Below are positions 1,980-32,653 of a DNA stretch of 64,000 nucleotides, in pieces. The stretch is from Nymphaea colorata (Eukaryota; Streptophyta; Magnoliopsida; Nymphaeales; Nymphaeaceae). The number at the start of each line of letters is the position of its first letter. Within the stretch, counting starts at the first letter, position 1. The notes beneath the pieces are model-generated. The model did not search any database. It was not told the DNA's origin and worked only from the letters and a program-made list of their open reading frames with translations. The translations under genes were made by a program, and so were the position numbers. The stretch lies in contig NC_045147.1 of assembly GCF_008831285.2 (NCBI RefSeq), positions 4,550,001 to 4,614,000 on the forward strand, written 5' to 3'.

Positions 1980-3497
1980 CCTTTCTGGGTAAGAGAGTCT
2001 TCTCAGGCCGCTCTCAATTTCTGCAACTCGTTAGAGAAACAGAGAAAGAGAGAAAGAGCGCAAACGTGGCCTGACATTGTCTTCTTCGTGTTAAAGAGGT
2101 ACAAGATGGAGTGGAAGAGATATGCTTTGTTCTAACTTTTAGTTCCTTCCATTTTTTCATTAAAAAAAAAACTTCCAATTTTTTTACTTTTCAGATGTAA
2201 AGCAAAGACGAGTGGTAGAGTCTTTGAATTAGAGAAATGTTGCTCTTTCGCTGTTTTGCGTGCTTTTGGTGATCTTGATTACGCCATTCATTATATCCCC
2301 TTCTTTTGCATCTTTTTCTGTTTGCTTTCCTTTTCCTCTCAAATCTTTCACTCAAGTTCGTCTCCTCATTTTGTTTTTAGCTGTTCGGAAATTTCCGCTG
2401 TGTTCTTGTGCTTGATCTGATTTCTCTACTTCATTTTCGTTAGGAAACTTTGCCCCCTTGGTGCATAATGAGTTTCAATAGGTTGAACGGTAAAGCCTGA
2501 TTGATGATCTTCGATCTGCCCAGGATGGAGGATTTCCTAGGAATGCCTTGTGGCCATGCCATTGTACGAGAATTTTCACTCCGCTGCATAATGAAATCCG
2601 CTCTTTATGACTTTATGGCTTCTTGATTTTGAATCATTTACGCATTCTATGGACCTCAAAATTTTTAGGCATCACTTTTGTGCTAACCGATTTTCTCATA
2701 TGCTTGAACGTATGGATGCATAAGATGGTGCAATGGCAAAACATCTAACTTCGCTGTTTCTTCACCGGTTGCACTCCTCCCTCTATTTAAACATAAGGCT
2801 TGAGCTTGGGTATATGAGCAGTGTCGTTCTTGAGCAAGTCCGATTACTATTTCATAAGTCAAAAGGATTTTTTTAATAGTGTCTGTGCTCCCTTTTGGCA
2901 ACTCCATTGTGATTTTCCTTTTTCTATTCTCAGAGTTGTCAACCAGGTGGTCAATCGTACTTGGTGTGGTTCATGCAAGGAAGCATTTTGTGCTGGACAA
3001 ACCTCTTCAATCTCTTCGCCTCTCATTCTAGTTTGGAAAACTAGACTCCGATGTTCTTTGTTTCCTATTGGTCGAGTAGCTTGGTCCGCAGACTACACAA
3101 GTCAATGAATGCTTAGATTTGTGGGAAGGACCCCCAAATGAATTTTGTCGCATTGGTCTTATTTTACTTGGTATTGCACACCTGTCTTGAATTTGTTTTT
3201 TTTCTTCAACCTAGTGTCCAGCTTAAATGTAACGGAAAAAGAAAAGTATGTAGTACATTTAACATTTGGAGAGAGCATGTAAAAACGACAAATGCTCCTA
3301 ATTTGTAATTTCAGTAATTCTATTAGTCCTGCTTACGTGGAGTTTTTGACCTTTTCTGTAGCAACCTAATTGATAAGTGGTAACAATAAAAGACAAAGGG
3401 CATGCTTTGACTATCAGCAGATCTTTCATTAATGAACAGTAGTAGATGAACTTATTGTTGTTTGGCTTTTCAGACATTACCTTGGCTAATTAGAATA

Positions 3498-3516
3498 TGA
3501 ATAAATAAATAAATAA

Positions 3517-3550
<34 letters not shown>
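3498..3550. repeat. (AATA)n followed by (TA)n microsatellite
   Basis: Several AATA units run into a TA dinucleotide tract ending at about 3550. Confidence 0.9.
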
Positions 3551-3551
<1 letters not shown>

Positions 3552-3629
3552 CTTCTTTTTTTCCATCTTCTTCTCCCAACTGTCCATATATAGTAAATTA
3601 ATAGTCTAGATAGTTCCTCATGGGTCTAG

Positions 3630-3802
<173 letters not shown>

Positions 3803-5005: not shown

Positions 5006-7690
5006 ATGGCACCAACTGGGGGCATATGCAAAGAAGATCCTGAATACTATGCTGCAATTGCAGATTATGATGTATTGACCACAGCTTCAGAAACTGATAA
5101 TATACAAGGAAAAGCATCCAGTGCATGTGGCAGTAAGATGGGCATGTCTTCAACAAATGGCGTGCATGAGCTACTTGAGTGCCCCGTTTGCACAAGCTTG
5201 ATGTACCCTCCAATTCATCAGGTTTTGTGCACTATTTTCTTTTGTTCCATGTTGTTCCAGAATGCATGCAACATTTCTGGTTTTAGTGTCAGACGAAGCC
5301 AGTGGTATGGATGTGACAAGAAGACTGAGATTGATTGGCCAACTAAGAACATAGGTTAAAGGAAATTTAACATTCTGTATTTTCTTTTATTGGTTTAGTT
5401 TGACTCACTTAGCAGTTATAATTAGAAAACAAATGCTTCAAAGGATTTCTTTCAGGAAACTATCAAGAAAATGCCCGGGCACGGTTTTCCTATTTCAGAA
5501 CCAAAGGTCATAAAATATGTCTGCACAGGATTCTGAAGAAATAAATGTCCTACTCTCTGAGAAGTAAATTTTGTTTTGATTTCCCATCTCTAAATTATTG
5601 ATTTATCCCTTTTGTTATCTTTTACGCTGAATGCTAGTTCGAACCAATTTCGTGACAGCTTTTTTATTTTGTGATTTTTGCTCAAATGGTACTTATCCCA
5701 GATGCATACGATATTCTCACCCCATAATTCTGTATTTTTTGGTCGCACCTTGATCTTTGATATGGCAACTTTATTTTGTAGTTGGTCATGGCTGAAGAGA
5801 TGAGATTCATAAATTAAGCCATTATATGGCCATAAATTATCTAAATTTTTTGTTGCTATTCACTTTCCTTCTGCAGTGTCCTAATGGTCATACATTGTGT
5901 TCAAACTGCAAGTTGAGAGTTCACAACTGCTGCCCAACTTGTCGTTATGAATTGGGAAACATAAGGTGCCTGGCTCTTGAGAAGGTCGCAGAGTCCTTGG
6001 AACTACCTTGCAGATATCAGAACTTAGGTTGCCATGACATTTTCCCTTACTATAGCAAGCTAAAGCATGAGCAGCAGTGCAGGTTTCGCCCATATAGCTG
6101 CCCTTATGCTGGCTCAGAATGCTCAGTCACTGGTGATATTCCATATCTGGTTGCTCATCTTAAAGATGATCACAAGGTTGATATGCATGATGGGTGCACA
6201 TTTAACCATAGATATGTGAAATCAAATCCACAAGAGGTCGAAAATGCCACGTGGATGCTAACTGTGAGTTCTTTTGCTTTTATGTGCAACTGAAAATTTT
6301 GTATGCTTATTTCTGATCCCTAGCCTTTGTATATTTCTGAAGTCGTGGATTTCCAAATGCTACTGGATTTTATGGGCATTCAGTTGAGGTCTCCTTCTAA
6401 AATAAAATGGTATATGCAGTTTGCTACTTGTAAACCAGCTATTATGATTATAACTATCAATTAATCTTTTGCTTTTGCAATAGATAGTCTGTAACTTATC
6501 ATTTCAGGGTTAATGCCTTTCATGTTTGATATTGAGCATGTTCTGCGCATAATTTTGTTAGGATGCTGAGGAATTGGTTTCTCTTAGGTATCCTCCATGT
6601 TGATAAAAGATTCTGAAAGGATAAGTTACTGATCTATTGGAAATACGAAACAGTAGTTGATGACGGTAATCTCAATAAACTGGTTTACAAGTAGCAAACT
6701 GCATATAATTTTTATCTTTAAAGGGGACCTCAACTAAATGCCTACAATGGACCATTTTTTATGATATTATATATTGAACATTACTTCCTGTAGTGCAATG
6801 CAGATGGCAATGCAATTAGCAACAACGAAGCTAGTGTATTGAGTCTCTTATAAGGAGATCATTTTCATCTAAAGTCTAGAAGGACCTTCATGAATCTGCG
6901 CCAGTAATTTCTCTTTTTGCTGTTTGAGATGAAAATTTGGGATGTCATTGGTTTAGATGGGGAGCCCTGAGCCATATTGAGTGTAGCCATGTCGAGGTAG
7001 GTTAATTATGAAGATCTTCGCGGCTATGCCGATCATGACCGACTGTTCTCGACTGAATGAAGGAAAGAAAGAAGAGGAAGAAGTGGAAGGGTGAAAAGAA
7101 GAAAGAGGTTCATGAGACCTTTGAAATAGACTCAGTTACTATCTCAAGTGTATATATATATAGCATGAACTAAATTTAAGTGTGCTATTTTTTTTTTGAT
7201 GCAGGTACCAGTAAATTAAGTGAAAAAAGTAGCTATGTTTCTGAAGAAGATTATAGCTCATTTTTTAATTAATGGACTAAATTGTGTAGCATAATCTAAA
7301 TGAAATAAATAATACTCTTCAAACCGGTTTGTTGATCAAATCGCTCAGTATCTTGACCTATTGTCTCAGGTATTCAATTGTTTCGGCAAGCAATTCTGCT
7401 TGCACTTTGAAGCTTTTCAGCTTGGAACTGCACCAGTATACATGGCGTTTCTTCGTTTCATGGGTGATGACAATGAGGCAAAAAACTTCAGTTACAGTCT
7501 AGAAGTTGGAGCAAATGGACGGAAACTAACATGGCAAGGTGTGCCTAGAAGTATCCGTGATAGCCACCGGAAAGTTCGTGACAGCCTGGATGGGTTGATC
7601 ATCCAGAGAAACATGGCACTATTTTTCTCAGGTGGTGACAGGCAGGAATTGAAGCTGAGAGTGACTGGACGCATTTGGAAAGAGCATTGA
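5006..7690 (+). CDS. SINAT: SINAT-type RING E3 ubiquitin-protein ligase (three exons, 307 aa)
   Basis: Coding exons are 5006-5221, 5877-6263 and 7370-7690, all joined in phase 0 at GT/AG introns of 655 and 1106 bp. The protein is a plant SEVEN IN ABSENTIA homologue, a family that transfers ubiquitin to target proteins and works as dimers. A C3HC4 RING spans residues 59-94 (Cys59, 62, 73, His77, Cys80, 83, 91, 94), interrupted by intron 1 after residue 72. A SIAH-type double zinc finger follows (Cys117, Cys124, His136, Cys140; Cys147, Cys154, His166, His171). The C-terminal TRAF-like substrate-binding and dimerisation domain occupies roughly 175-300 and ends in the family-typical VTGRIWKE. Length matches the family (about 305-325 aa), all zinc ligands are present and there is no frameshift, so the gene looks functional. 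The start at 5006 has a good context (AACCATGG) and matches the usual MAP- beginning. Extra Cys90 beside Cys91 is a minor oddity. Which SINAT paralogue it is cannot be settled from one sequence. Confidence 0.96.
6374..6743. repeat. Inverted repeat (fold-back) inside SINAT intron 2
   Basis: The left arm 6374-6438 and right arm 6680-6743 are reverse complements. The inner ~28 nt, including GCAGTTTGCTACTTGTAAAC, pair perfectly and the outer ~35 nt pair with several mismatches. The spacer is about 240 bp. The whole unit lies in the intron and does not touch splice sites. It may be a decayed miniature fold-back transposon; no clear target duplication is visible. In the pre-mRNA it could form a long hairpin. 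Confidence 0.85.
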
Positions 7691-28369: not shown

Positions 28370-28928
28370 CTAAGACCTTCGTAATTGCTCTAGGCACCTA
28401 TCTATCTCAAGACGAAGCCCTTCGACAAGTGCGTTAGGGTCTGGTAGGGGCATTGTTATTGGCTGCCAGTATTGGTTATTGAACTCAGGTGGGTGGCCTC
28501 CTCTTCTGTTATCATATGCCCGTCGGTCACAACAAGGTATGTGGTCAGAATTTTCCCTCAAACGTGAAACCGTAGGCTCCCATTCTTGTTGGTATCTTCT
28601 CAAACGGTTGGCTCCACTTCTGCTCTCAATATCATATGCCCGTCGGTCACAACAAGGTATGTGGTCAGAATTTTCCCTCAAACGTGAAACCGTAGGCTCC
28701 CATTCTTGTTGGTATCTTCTCAAATGGTTGGCTCCACTTCTGCTCTCAATATATCTACAGGTATACGTGTGACAACCGCTTGACCTTTTCCTTGGCTGGA
28801 ATAATCTAGCACCCACTTCAGCTCTTAGTCTGTATTTGATCCCCCTATTTTCTGAACGTCTCCCTCTGTAAATTGTAGGTACCGATTTGCTACCATTTTT
28901 CGAACCGAGAGGAGGGTGCTGTGATCGG
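28370..28928 (-). pseudogene. 3' part of the gag-like reading frame of the interrupted element
   Basis: The frame is open on the minus strand from the insertion point of element B to a TAG at 28370-28372. It is rich in Arg, Glu and Ser, and ends in a predicted helix with LEIDRCLEQLRR. It includes an in-frame 40-codon duplication (28511-28750). The open frame continues past 28937 only because it reads by chance into the inserted element. If element B plus one target copy (3717 bp, a multiple of three) is mentally removed, the frame stays open across the site up to a stop at 32738. No family is recognised. Confidence 0.45.
28511..28750 (-). repeat. Exact 120-bp tandem duplication (two copies)
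   Basis: Copies 28511-28630 and 28631-28750 differ at about one position (CAAACGG versus CAAATGG). The unit is 40 codons long, keeps the minus-strand frame and encodes segments such as RRYQQEWEPTVSRLRENSDH. Such near-identity means the duplication is young relative to the decay elsewhere in the element. Confidence 0.95.
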
Positions 28929-28936
28929 GAGATAGG
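28929..28936. repeat. 8-bp target duplication of hAT element B (left)
   Basis: GAGATAGG, repeated exactly at 32646-32653. Confidence 0.92.
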
Positions 28937-29132
28937 TAGGGCTGCACAACGAGTCGAACCAACTCGGGCTCGACTCGAACTCGCTCGAAAAAGCTCGGCT
29001 CGAGCTCGACTCATTTATAAACGAGTCGAGTTCGAGTTGAAAGTTAAGCTCGAGTCAATAAACGAGTCGAGTTCGAGTTGCAAGAACTCGACTCGTTTAA
29101 ACTCGACTCGACTCGTTAATTGAAAATTAGAT

Positions 29133-29155
29133 GAACCGGTTTTCGAAACCGGTTC
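29133..29155. repeat. 23-bp palindrome near the left end of element B
   Basis: GAACCGGTTT and AAACCGGTTC are perfect inverted 10-mers separated by TCG. It lies just inside the subterminal repeats, so may be part of the transposase-binding structure or a capture junction. Confidence 0.85.
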
Positions 29156-29400
29156 AGCGGTTTAGGGTAAATTTGTTTTTTCTTTTGGCTCTCGTCTAAT
29201 CTCAATCCCGCGCCGTCTGCTCTCCCTCTTGGCTCTCGTCTTCTCAATCCTGCGCCGTCTGCTCTTCCCCTCTTCCATCGACCAGAGGCACCCTCTCTTC
29301 CGCTGCTCCGCAGACCGTTGCTGGCTTTCTGCCGCGGCCTTCTCTTGCCACTGGCCCCCGCGCCCCACCCCACTCTCGCTGCTGCTGCCTGACCTCACAG

Positions 29401-29665
29401 CTTGCTGGACTCCTGCTCCCACCTTCACGCCAGGTACCTCTTCAACCTTCGTTTCTTCTTCTCCTTGTTCTTCTTCTTCTTCTTCCTCCTCCCAACTGAT
29501 TTTGCCCAAATACCGCTGTTGCCTCAGTCAGACGACGCATCTATCGCCTTTCCCCTTCTCTCGTTGTTGCTGCCTCACAGCCTCAGGCGCGTCCCTCTCA
29601 CTCTTGCTGGACTCCTGCTCCCGCCTTCACGCCAAGTACCCCTTCAGCCTTCCTTTCTTCTTCTT
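29401..29665 (+). repeat. Diverged direct duplication inside element B
   Basis: A block of about 60 bp starting CTTGCTGGACTCCTGCTCCC at 29401 recurs near 29602 with a few substitutions. Both copies run into GCCAGGTACC/GCCAAGTACC and then TC-rich sequence. It is leader-like and lies upstream of the captured chromodomain exons. Confidence 0.75.
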
Positions 29666-29718
29666 CTTGTCGTTCTTCAATAATGTTCTTTCTGATAAGT
29701 TAGTGATAACTATAGCAG

Positions 29719-30292
29719 GAGCGGGAAGGCGAGATTCAGCCGGAGCTACCCAAACTCGACGAGGGTTTCTACGAGATCGAAGACGTCAGGAAGAAGCGGA
29801 CGAGGAAGGTATTCAAGGGTGCGGGTTGGCTTCCCTTTTTTTCTGGTCAAGTCTTTCTTCTTTTGATTTTGAGCTTCTGCTTGTTGTCTTTGCAGGGTCA
29901 GGTTCAGTATCTCATAAAATGGTACTTCTTCTTCTTTTTCTTTCCTCCTTCTGCAAGTTTCTTTTTGTTCCTTCTTCTGCAAGACTGCAACTAATTCGGG
30001 CCCTTCTCCTTCAACGTTTTTCTCAAGGCGGGGATGGCTGGAGACAGCGAATACGTGGGAGCCGGAGGAGAACCTCCAGAGTTGCCGAGATATCCTCGAA
30101 GCTTATGAAGAGAGGTTTGCTTTACTCTGGATGTGTGATCTGTATATGTTTTTGGTGGTTTAGTTATGGGGCAATTGTTGATTCTGGGGGTGCCACTTCG
30201 CTAGATCTTCCAAATCGGTCCGGAAGCGCAGAAGGAAAACTCACCATTCAATCAAGAAGAAAAGAACTGTGCCTTTCATAAATATGGCATAG
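29719..30292 (+). pseudogene. LHP1: Captured LHP1/TFL2-type chromodomain gene fragment (four exons)
   Basis: Exons 29719-29808, 29896-29921, 30028-30114 and 30205 to about 30292 are separated by introns with usable GT/AG signals. Read together they give the acidic lead-in and PKLDEGFYEIEDVR start, RKKRTRKG, then VQYLIKW, then [18 protein letters not shown] with CRDILEAYE, and finally a Lys/Arg-rich segment (VRKRRRK). These match the chromodomain and following basic region of plant LHP1, the Polycomb-associated reader of H3K27me3. The aromatic-cage positions of the fold (Tyr of FYEIE, Trp of IKWRGW, Trp of NTWEP) are present. The upstream exon start and the chromoshadow domain are missing, and exon 4 reaches a TAG within about 29 codons. 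Retained introns show capture from genomic DNA, not from a transcript. Whether a chimeric transcript is made cannot be told. Confidence 0.85.
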
Positions 30293-31980
30293 GCTTTGAA
30301 GCATAAGCATTCATTTCACCATAGCTTGTCAAAGAATAACATAAGAACAAAAAAAAAACAAATACATAATGTGTGAATTAATAAAAGTAAGAATATACCA
30401 AATATAAATAACAGAAGAAAAATGAGGAGGAGAACAAATGGGTAATGGAAGAAACGACAAAAAAAAAGAACAAAATGTAAGAAGAAAAAACGGAAAAAAA
30501 AAACAGATTAGAAAGTAAGAAAGAAAAAGAGAACATAAGAATACAAAGAGAAATATCAGAGAAAGATGATGAAGAAGAAATGGTATGCTGATGGCTCTCT
30601 TTTGCGGTTTTATGTTTTCCTTTTAGCACATAGATTTGTTGTGTGAAGGCTGTGTCCATGTTTGACTAGTTTCAACAATAACTTATGCCTCAATTTTCGG
30701 GTGCACTTCATAGAAAAGTGCATCTCAATTCACTGTATAGCTATGTAGCAGTATCTGCCACTACTTCTTGCATTTGTACCTGAGAGAGCATTGACAACAA
30801 TAAATCTGCAGTCTTTTGAAACTGGGAGGAGTCTCTCACTATAAGAAATAATTATGAAAAAGATCTCTTTCGTTGTCTAATATATTGCTTTTATGTTTGA
30901 AGTTTCTTTTAACTTTATAAGAATTATTCCATGGTACATTGTGAGGTTTCAGGGTACATATAGCACTATAGTACTACAGTTCTCTCTGCGATTCACTTGA
31001 GTGAATTTGGTGTGAAAAATTGTCTCTGTGTTGTGGAATTGAACTGTCATTATCTCTGAATGGCTGGGTTTGCTGTAAATTGGTATCATCAATATAATGA
31101 ACCTTGTTTACTTCCAGAAAATAGACCCGTTACCTTCCTTTTGTTGATATAAGCAATGCCACATGGTTGGTGTACGTATCTGATGTCTGCATCCCCACTT
31201 GATCCTGACTGAGAGTGAGAAGGGTCTACCTGTTGGTCTGCAAAAATCTTACAACTGTAGCCCAGCTACTTATGGCTTTTGCTTGAGGCAACTTTTCCTA
31301 GTCGTTAATGTGCTCGACTACTAATGTGATAGACACAGCCTCTCTCTTCTCTCTCTCCCTCTCCCTCTCCCTTTCTTATGGCTGTGTGTGTTTGAGAGGC
31401 AAGAACTGCAACCTGAAAATAAGCAAATTAAATTGAAGAGTTTAGGGACAGGCAATTGAGACACCAGAATGATTAGTAGAGCAGAGTAGCTCAAGTGATA
31501 GTCCTTGCTTCAGCTTTCCACTGCTGAGATGGATAGATCTTGTTCATGGAGTCTGATTTGTGCCTTTCTATCAGATGTACTTTATCTTCTGCTCATGCAC
31601 CAAAATTGCCTCCGGTTTAAGGTCAAATGTTGTTATACATGCAATGCATTCGGTCACATTTCATGAAAAAGCTTCTGGACATGTTCTTCATTTTTCTTTA
31701 TTTCTTTTGGTTTTAAATTGCTTTGTTTGTTAATTGCTTGGTAAGGTAGCAAGAACTAAGATATTAGGTGCATGTTAGTTGATGTGGTCACCTTCTGACT
31801 GACCAGTTGCTTGGGCTACGTAACATTACTGTGTAAAGTTGTAAACCATCTTATGCCTGTGCATGCATTTTTTGCTTCTTGTGATACTTGTGCTACACCC
31901 TGAATTATTTTTAATATTTTTCTGTCATGCCACACAATACATTTGGAAGCTCGTGAGATGTTAATCATGTATATTTACAG
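30293..31980 (+). other. Interior of element B, probably captured intronic DNA
   Basis: AT-rich, intron-like sequence between the chromodomain exons and a further exon candidate. It contains a CT-rich simple stretch at about 31338-31378. No reading frame is recognised. Confidence 0.4.
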
Positions 31981-32041
31981 ATGACCAGGCTGATTCCTGC
32001 GTATTGTTCGTTGTTGTTGGTTTCTTATTCCACATTCCCAC

Positions 32042-32277
32042 AGGACATTCATGAGAAGACCGGCTTGCCTGGGGTTGATATGGGAGTGAAGGAGGCTACT
32101 GATGAATTTTCTCTTATGACTGTTCTAGAGCCTAAAATATGTGAGTTGCAAGCGGGTCAGTTGATTTTACAAGAGGCCCCTAGAGATAGTAGACTCCAGG
32201 GATGCTGGGACAGGAAATGCAGCTCTACAAGCAATAATGATTGTATCCTGTGGCTTGACAAGATTGTGCAACAATGA
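32042..32277 (+). pseudogene. Possible additional captured exon in element B
   Basis: An acceptor-like CCACAG precedes an open frame beginning near DIHEKTGLPGV and containing DEFSLMTVLEP, ending at a stop at about 32275. Composition is coding-like. If capture was collinear it may be a later, poorly conserved LHP1 exon, but I cannot recognise it and it could come from another gene. Confidence 0.3.
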
Positions 32278-32645
32278 AAGAACTATGTGGCTTGATCATG
32301 CTTCAGCATTATCACTCATAGAAGGCTAAAGGATTTAAATGACTAAATGAGCTAAACAAGTAAACTAGTTAACATTGAGCTAACCAAGTACTGAACGAGT
32401 TAAACGAGTCAGCACTGAAACGAGCTAAACGAGTTAAAGTTAAAAAAGTAAATTTTAAACAAGTCAACGAGTTAAATGAGTTAATCGAGTCGAGCTCGAG
32501 CTCGACTTTGTTTAGTCGAGCCGAGCTCGAGCTTGTTGTAAGAAGCTCGACTCGAGCTCGAGTCGAGTTTGAGCTCGAGTAATCTTAGCCGAGTCGAGCT
32601 CAAGCTGGCCAAGCTCGGGCTCGGCTCGGCTCGTGTGCAGCCGTA

Positions 32646-32653
32646 GAGATAGG
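32646..32653. repeat. 8-bp target duplication of hAT element B (right)
   Basis: Exact copy of GAGATAGG at 28929-28936. Confidence 0.92.

Follow-up and report, generated by a model that had tools for sequence, protein, structure and literature searches.

Non-autonomous hAT transposons that combine terminal inverted repeats and target site duplications with captured genic DNA, the Pack-hATs, have been described in maize and rice, where one maize Pack-hAT extends a host exon (PMC8903248). In grapevine, copies of Hatvine-6 have shared termini and variable inner DNA, both genic (introns and exons) and non-genic (PMC2528002). Capture of gene pieces by hATs is already known, and the element described here, from the early-diverging angiosperm Nymphaea colorata, is a further case. 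The initial annotation of this locus was fair in calling such capture less often noted for hATs, yet Hatvine-6 and the Pack-hATs are in print.

How DNA transposons acquire unlinked gene fragments is unsettled. Animal Pack-TIRs resemble the present element in their breakpoint microhomology and in the models applied to them, gap filling in place and FoSTeST (template switching, then transposition), which can be told apart; the authors deem an application to plant Pack-MULEs worth exploring (PMC8277862). A 2026 review describes a model of neighbouring insertions and still allows for an undiscovered mechanism (PMC13317346).

Compared with the Pack-hATs of maize and rice (PMC8903248), the element analysed here is alike in being a non-autonomous hAT with inverted termini, a target site duplication and captured genic DNA. 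It differs in that two donors are joined directly, the ends group with two subfamilies, the junctions favour template switching over neighbouring insertions, and the host is Nymphaea rather than maize or rice. Unlike Hatvine-6, whose copies share transposase coding sequence (PMC2528002), it contains none that we found.

A single hAT insertion

The window, by which we mean the whole stretch of 64,000 nucleotides analysed, corresponds to C10:4550001-4614000 of N. colorata; the genome searched comprised 407.8 Mb in 783 contigs. The element and its borders are as follows.

28929-28936, unstranded: left 8-bp target site duplication, GAGATAGG
28937-32645: whole hAT element, 3.7 kb, one insertion, non-autonomous
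28937-28948, plus strand: left terminal inverted repeat, TAGGGCTGCACA, a motif also present in other family copies
32634-32645, minus strand: right terminal inverted repeat, TACGGCTGCACA read as the reverse complement
32646-32653, unstranded: right 8-bp target site duplication, GAGATAGG

The duplication GAGATAGG is perfect on both sides of the element, as the initial annotation had described, and the two termini agree at 11 of 12 bp. When the flanks were joined with one copy of the duplication and used as a query (5/5 candidates scored), paralogous sequences spanning the insertion point were retrieved on C1 (80%) and C6 (78%), each carrying GAGATAGG once and unbroken. Thus, 28937-32645 is one insertion. 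A composite in which the termini and the duplication belong to two separate insertions is ruled out by the perfect target site duplication together with the two empty sites.

Directly to the left of the insertion, the window contains a 116-bp near-tandem duplication (28517-28752, 99% identical). A SINA-type E3 ubiquitin ligase gene lies at 5799-7687, where the scores of the Sina zinc finger and the TRAF-like domain exceed the cut-off and that of the Sina RING falls slightly short of it. Two ORFs flanking the element gave no Pfam match above the cut-off.

The hAT family and its transposase

Genome loci holding family copies or donors were fetched and are labelled L034-L049 and so on. The whole-element search returned at least 90 matches, with the best 40 of 2437 candidates scored, and family counts are therefore lower bounds. 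Among the fetched loci, both ends and a perfect 8-bp duplication were found in 11 copies, that is, in ten besides that of the window; both ends are also present in L039, L040 and L046, where a matching duplication was not seen. Two relatives by their ends, L035 and L034, encode the hAT dimerisation domain PF05699 (1.4e-29 and 2.6e-29, respectively). The match between the window element and the transposase-remnant copies L034, L035 and L038 is confined to the end parts, and Pfam detected no hAT domain in its spliced LHP1 frame or in the ORF at 31957-32274. The element is thus non-autonomous, lacking a transposase of its own.

By its 8-bp duplication, its short inverted termini and the PF05699 domain of its relatives, the window element belongs to the hAT superfamily; with no transposase of its own and with copied host DNA whose donors lie elsewhere, it is a Pack-TYPE element, specifically a Pack-hAT. 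Elsewhere in the family, the 915-bp copy L043:1001-1915, flanked by a perfect duplication, retains no more than about 23 bp of the family left end. A near-minimal left end of this kind may be sufficient for transposition.

A piece of LHP1 captured with its introns

The first captured fragment and its exons are located as follows.

29715-30279, plus strand: LHP1 fragment of 565 bp, captured from C12:8666651-8667215
29719-29808, plus strand: LHP1 exon 1, a 5'-truncated coding exon without ATG
29896-29921, plus strand: LHP1 exon 2
30028-30114, plus strand: LHP1 exon 3
30205-30279, plus strand: LHP1 exon 4, 3'-truncated at the capture junction

Alignment to the LHP1 locus of the same genome is ungapped, with 19 mismatches in 565 bp (96.6% identity). 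A genome search with 29700-30300 recovered only the window and the C12 LHP1 locus (2/2 candidates scored), which rules out a closer donor in a second LHP1-like copy. The genome's LHP1 gene is accordingly the closest match, and the concern that the genome might hold no LHP1-like gene nearer than generic chromodomains falls away. All three introns are of the GT..AG type in both element and donor, and all six of their splice sites are kept; the piece was therefore copied as genomic DNA, and origin as a retrocopy is ruled out. The capture of an LHP1-type chromodomain with its introns, as initially proposed, is thus borne out. The description of four exons with intact splice sites holds for the six intron borders and not for the outer limits, exon 1 being truncated at its 5' side and exon 4 cut by the junction. 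The AG ahead of exon 1 has no counterpart among the splice sites of the donor, where this position is AA and lies within a coding exon.

As in LHP1/TFL2, the captured exons encode an LHP1 chromodomain: the spliced frame matches Pfam Chromo (6e-18), and of the sequences of solved structures a chain named LHP1 comes closest (8xag, 1.7e-27), with a second LHP1 chromodomain chain, 7vyw, also among the matches. We take both chains to be from Arabidopsis. In the donor gene, exon 1 starts with an ATG upstream of the captured stretch, and open frames carry the next exons and, judged by eye, what is presumably a chromoshadow region. In contrast, the captured piece has neither an in-frame start codon nor the part of the gene downstream of exon 4, and one amino-acid difference from the donor changes Pro to Leu adjoining RGW. 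The part of the literature listed for hAT gene capture together with LHP1 yielded no report of LHP1 capture.

Coding potential of the LHP1 piece

The initial annotation envisaged a mobile H3K27me3-reader module, and a functional, expressed chromodomain gene competing with Polycomb would indeed be in keeping with the intact splice sites of all three introns and with a spliced frame that stays open across the chromodomain. However, this frame contains no Met, an in-frame stop lies just upstream (29713-29715), exon 4 is truncated, and the element is a single copy. Among its five ATG-started ORFs of at least 50 codons, none is in the chromodomain frame, as judged by eye. Element and donor differ at 8 coding positions, six of them non-synonymous, the direction of change not being polarised. 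Among these eight is the difference at 29718, which is coding in the donor and silent.

Because of the missing Met, the upstream stop, the cut exon 4 and the six non-synonymous differences among eight, a chromodomain product is improbable. A working H3K27me3 reader encoded by the element is, on these features, unlikely, and we give a functional gene hardly any credence. Most likely, the piece is a passenger in decay that yields no protein, and the choice of LHP1 as cargo was an accident of capture. At most, the piece could serve as a source of small RNAs, as 294 of its 545 21-mers are identical to the donor region, compared with 506 of 1960 for the second captured piece.

A second captured locus joined directly to LHP1

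A second locus, which the initial annotation left unmentioned along with the mosaic ends described below, contributed over half of the element (30280-32256).

29679-29714, plus strand: left filler, 36 bp between the element end and the LHP1 piece
30277-30279, plus strand: junction overlap CAT, 3 bp common to both donors
30277-32256, plus strand: second captured fragment, from the minus strand of C12:13410681-13412829
32257-32324, plus strand: right filler, between the second capture and the right end, its last part like L045 (30 bp, 93%)

The second fragment differs from its donor by 105 mismatches in 1948 aligned bases (94.6% identity), plus indels that include 159 donor bp missing from the element. 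A search with 30280-32256 (4/4 candidates scored) gave long matches at the window and at one donor only, the two others being about 50 bp. This donor lies 4.7 Mb from the LHP1 donor, both on C12. No Pfam family above the cut-off was found for two ORFs of the donor or for one ORF of the element; the donor is likely a gene, and we assume that it resembles one for a plant gar2-related protein.

At the CAT junction, each donor simply runs on in the genome, and no element sequence separates the two captures. Joining the two donor regions at random gives an overlap of at least 3 bp in 6.3% of cases, so that CAT alone is weak evidence. The left filler had no significant match in the fetched loci besides the window's own copy, and the right filler was matched only partly.

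The divergence of the LHP1 introns (11/283) is statistically indistinguishable from that of the second piece (105/1948; Fisher p 0.39) and is therefore compatible with one capture episode. The comparison of the whole LHP1 piece (19/565) with the second piece is borderline (Fisher p 0.06), and two capture steps are therefore also possible.

Two subfamilies in one element

The outer parts of the element come from the hAT family.

28937-29678, plus strand: left end, L034/L035 (transposase-remnant) subfamily, with CTCGAG-type subterminal repeats
32325-32645 (query 3389-3709), plus strand: right end, L041/L042/L043/L045/L046/L049 subfamily

The first 200 bp of the window element are 97.0% identical to L034 and 96.5% to L035, compared with 86.0-86.5% for L041/L042. 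For the last 180 bp the order is reversed, with 95.0% identity to L041/L042, 84.4% to L034 and 83.8% to L035. Of the two trees, each of 13 copies, one groups the left end with L034/L035 (98/99), and the other groups the right end with L041, L042, L043, L045, L046 and L049 (100/100). AU tests, for which the groups were named after the trees had been seen, reject L034/L035 as partners of the right end (p 1e-4) and L041/L042 (p 8e-4) or five L041-type copies (p 2e-6) as partners of the left end. A broad grouping of the right end with all six L034-type copies is not rejected (p 0.13). As far as the sequences of the copies indicate, left and right end come from different subfamilies of one hAT.

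Support for the deep split in the left-end tree is low (63/81). L040/L044 combine left ends of the L041 type with right ends of the L034 type; the subfamily borders are therefore not clean, and these two copies may themselves be mosaics.

Further captures by sister elements

Besides the window element, the family appears to have captured DNA at least twice. In L049 (L049:1000-3918), a 1.28-kb piece matches C10:2157914-2159232 (donor L055) at 90%, and an open frame encodes an elongation-factor-type GTPase domain (PF00009, 4.7e-26). The inner part occurs at five places with 95-100% identity (38/38 candidates scored), one of them on a small contig and maybe an assembly duplicate. The inner part of L045 (L045:1001-4494) matches several separate places of the genome (40 of 53 candidates scored).

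In L041 (L041:2034-5499), found at no fewer than three places (40 of 62 candidates scored), 1.4 kb matches C3:936814-938237 at 93%; no long open frame was found in this C3 donor. Copies on C4 share both flanks of the C3 stretch and lack the stretch itself (same 40 of 62 candidates), and the seams were read against one C4 copy and the C3 donor (L059, L060). At the first seam, the joined sequences overlap by about 4 bp (GCTG); at the second, a 1-bp overlap leads into a 45-bp stretch of the same C3 donor, that is, a templated filler; the third returns into the element with a 6-bp overlap (CTGTGA); and the last is ambiguous, with 1-5 bp. By comparison of these loci, not polarised by an outgroup, L041 would be a C4-type copy with part of it exchanged for C3 DNA plus filler. 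The short overlaps and the 45-bp templated filler suggest template switching.

Origin of the element

The window holds a single hAT insertion containing fragments of two loci that were copied as genomic DNA and whose donors are still in place. We estimate at roughly 80% the probability that this is a Pack-type hAT that formed as a template-switch chimera of subfamilies and two donors and was inserted as a unit, with the LHP1 piece as a passenger without protein. DNA repair or replication would have built the chimera by switching template from an L034-like element to LHP1, from there to the second locus and finally to an L041-like element, with switches at short overlaps and with some filler. 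In a last step, hAT transposase acting in trans would have inserted the chimera as one piece.

Ends from different subfamilies, as seen here, would also be allowed if two family members flanking host DNA were mobilised together and carried the intervening DNA along, a model put forward for Pack-TYPE elements in maize and rice, Pack-CACTA among them (PMC8903248). However, two loci 4.7 Mb apart are joined here with no element sequence between them, and L041 contains templated filler inside a single element. Furthermore, the model would lead one to expect family ends near the donors if traces survive, yet a search at E 1e-5 with the first or last 300 bp from 14 copies detected none in 15 kb around the LHP1 donor or in 10 kb around the second. 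The direct join of distant loci, the two-subfamily ends and the filler in L041 are better explained by serial template switching than by neighbouring insertions, which we regard as distinctly improbable.

The window element is a single copy, both captured pieces being found at the window and at the donor only. This would agree with capture in place, in which a resident element broke, its gap was filled from the two donors and no later move took place; gap filling is reported for most single-copy animal Pack-TIRs (PMC8277862). A single insertion is compatible with insertion before or after capture, and the sister elements L049 and L041 are present at five and at least three places, respectively. 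However, under capture in place both duplication-flanked ends stem from the original element, which must hence have been mosaic already, and none of the 11 other copies compared at both ends, a part of the family, pairs a left end of the L034 type with a right end of the L041 type. The mosaic ends could be older than the capture. Unless the starting element was already mosaic, mosaic ends within one duplication favour switching followed by transposition over gap filling in place, and we consider the latter rather unlikely, less so than neighbouring insertions.

Template switching followed by transposition might extend to the family as a whole. With somewhat less than even confidence, we propose that this plant hAT family repeatedly gains unlinked gene pieces by serial template switching among subfamilies and host loci and then moves as chimeras. 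Where several captures, donors that can be identified and capture-free copies occur within one family, the seams become directly readable. If true, serial switching would provide a junction-level plant case for the kind of capture mechanism that the 2026 review calls possibly undiscovered (PMC13317346).
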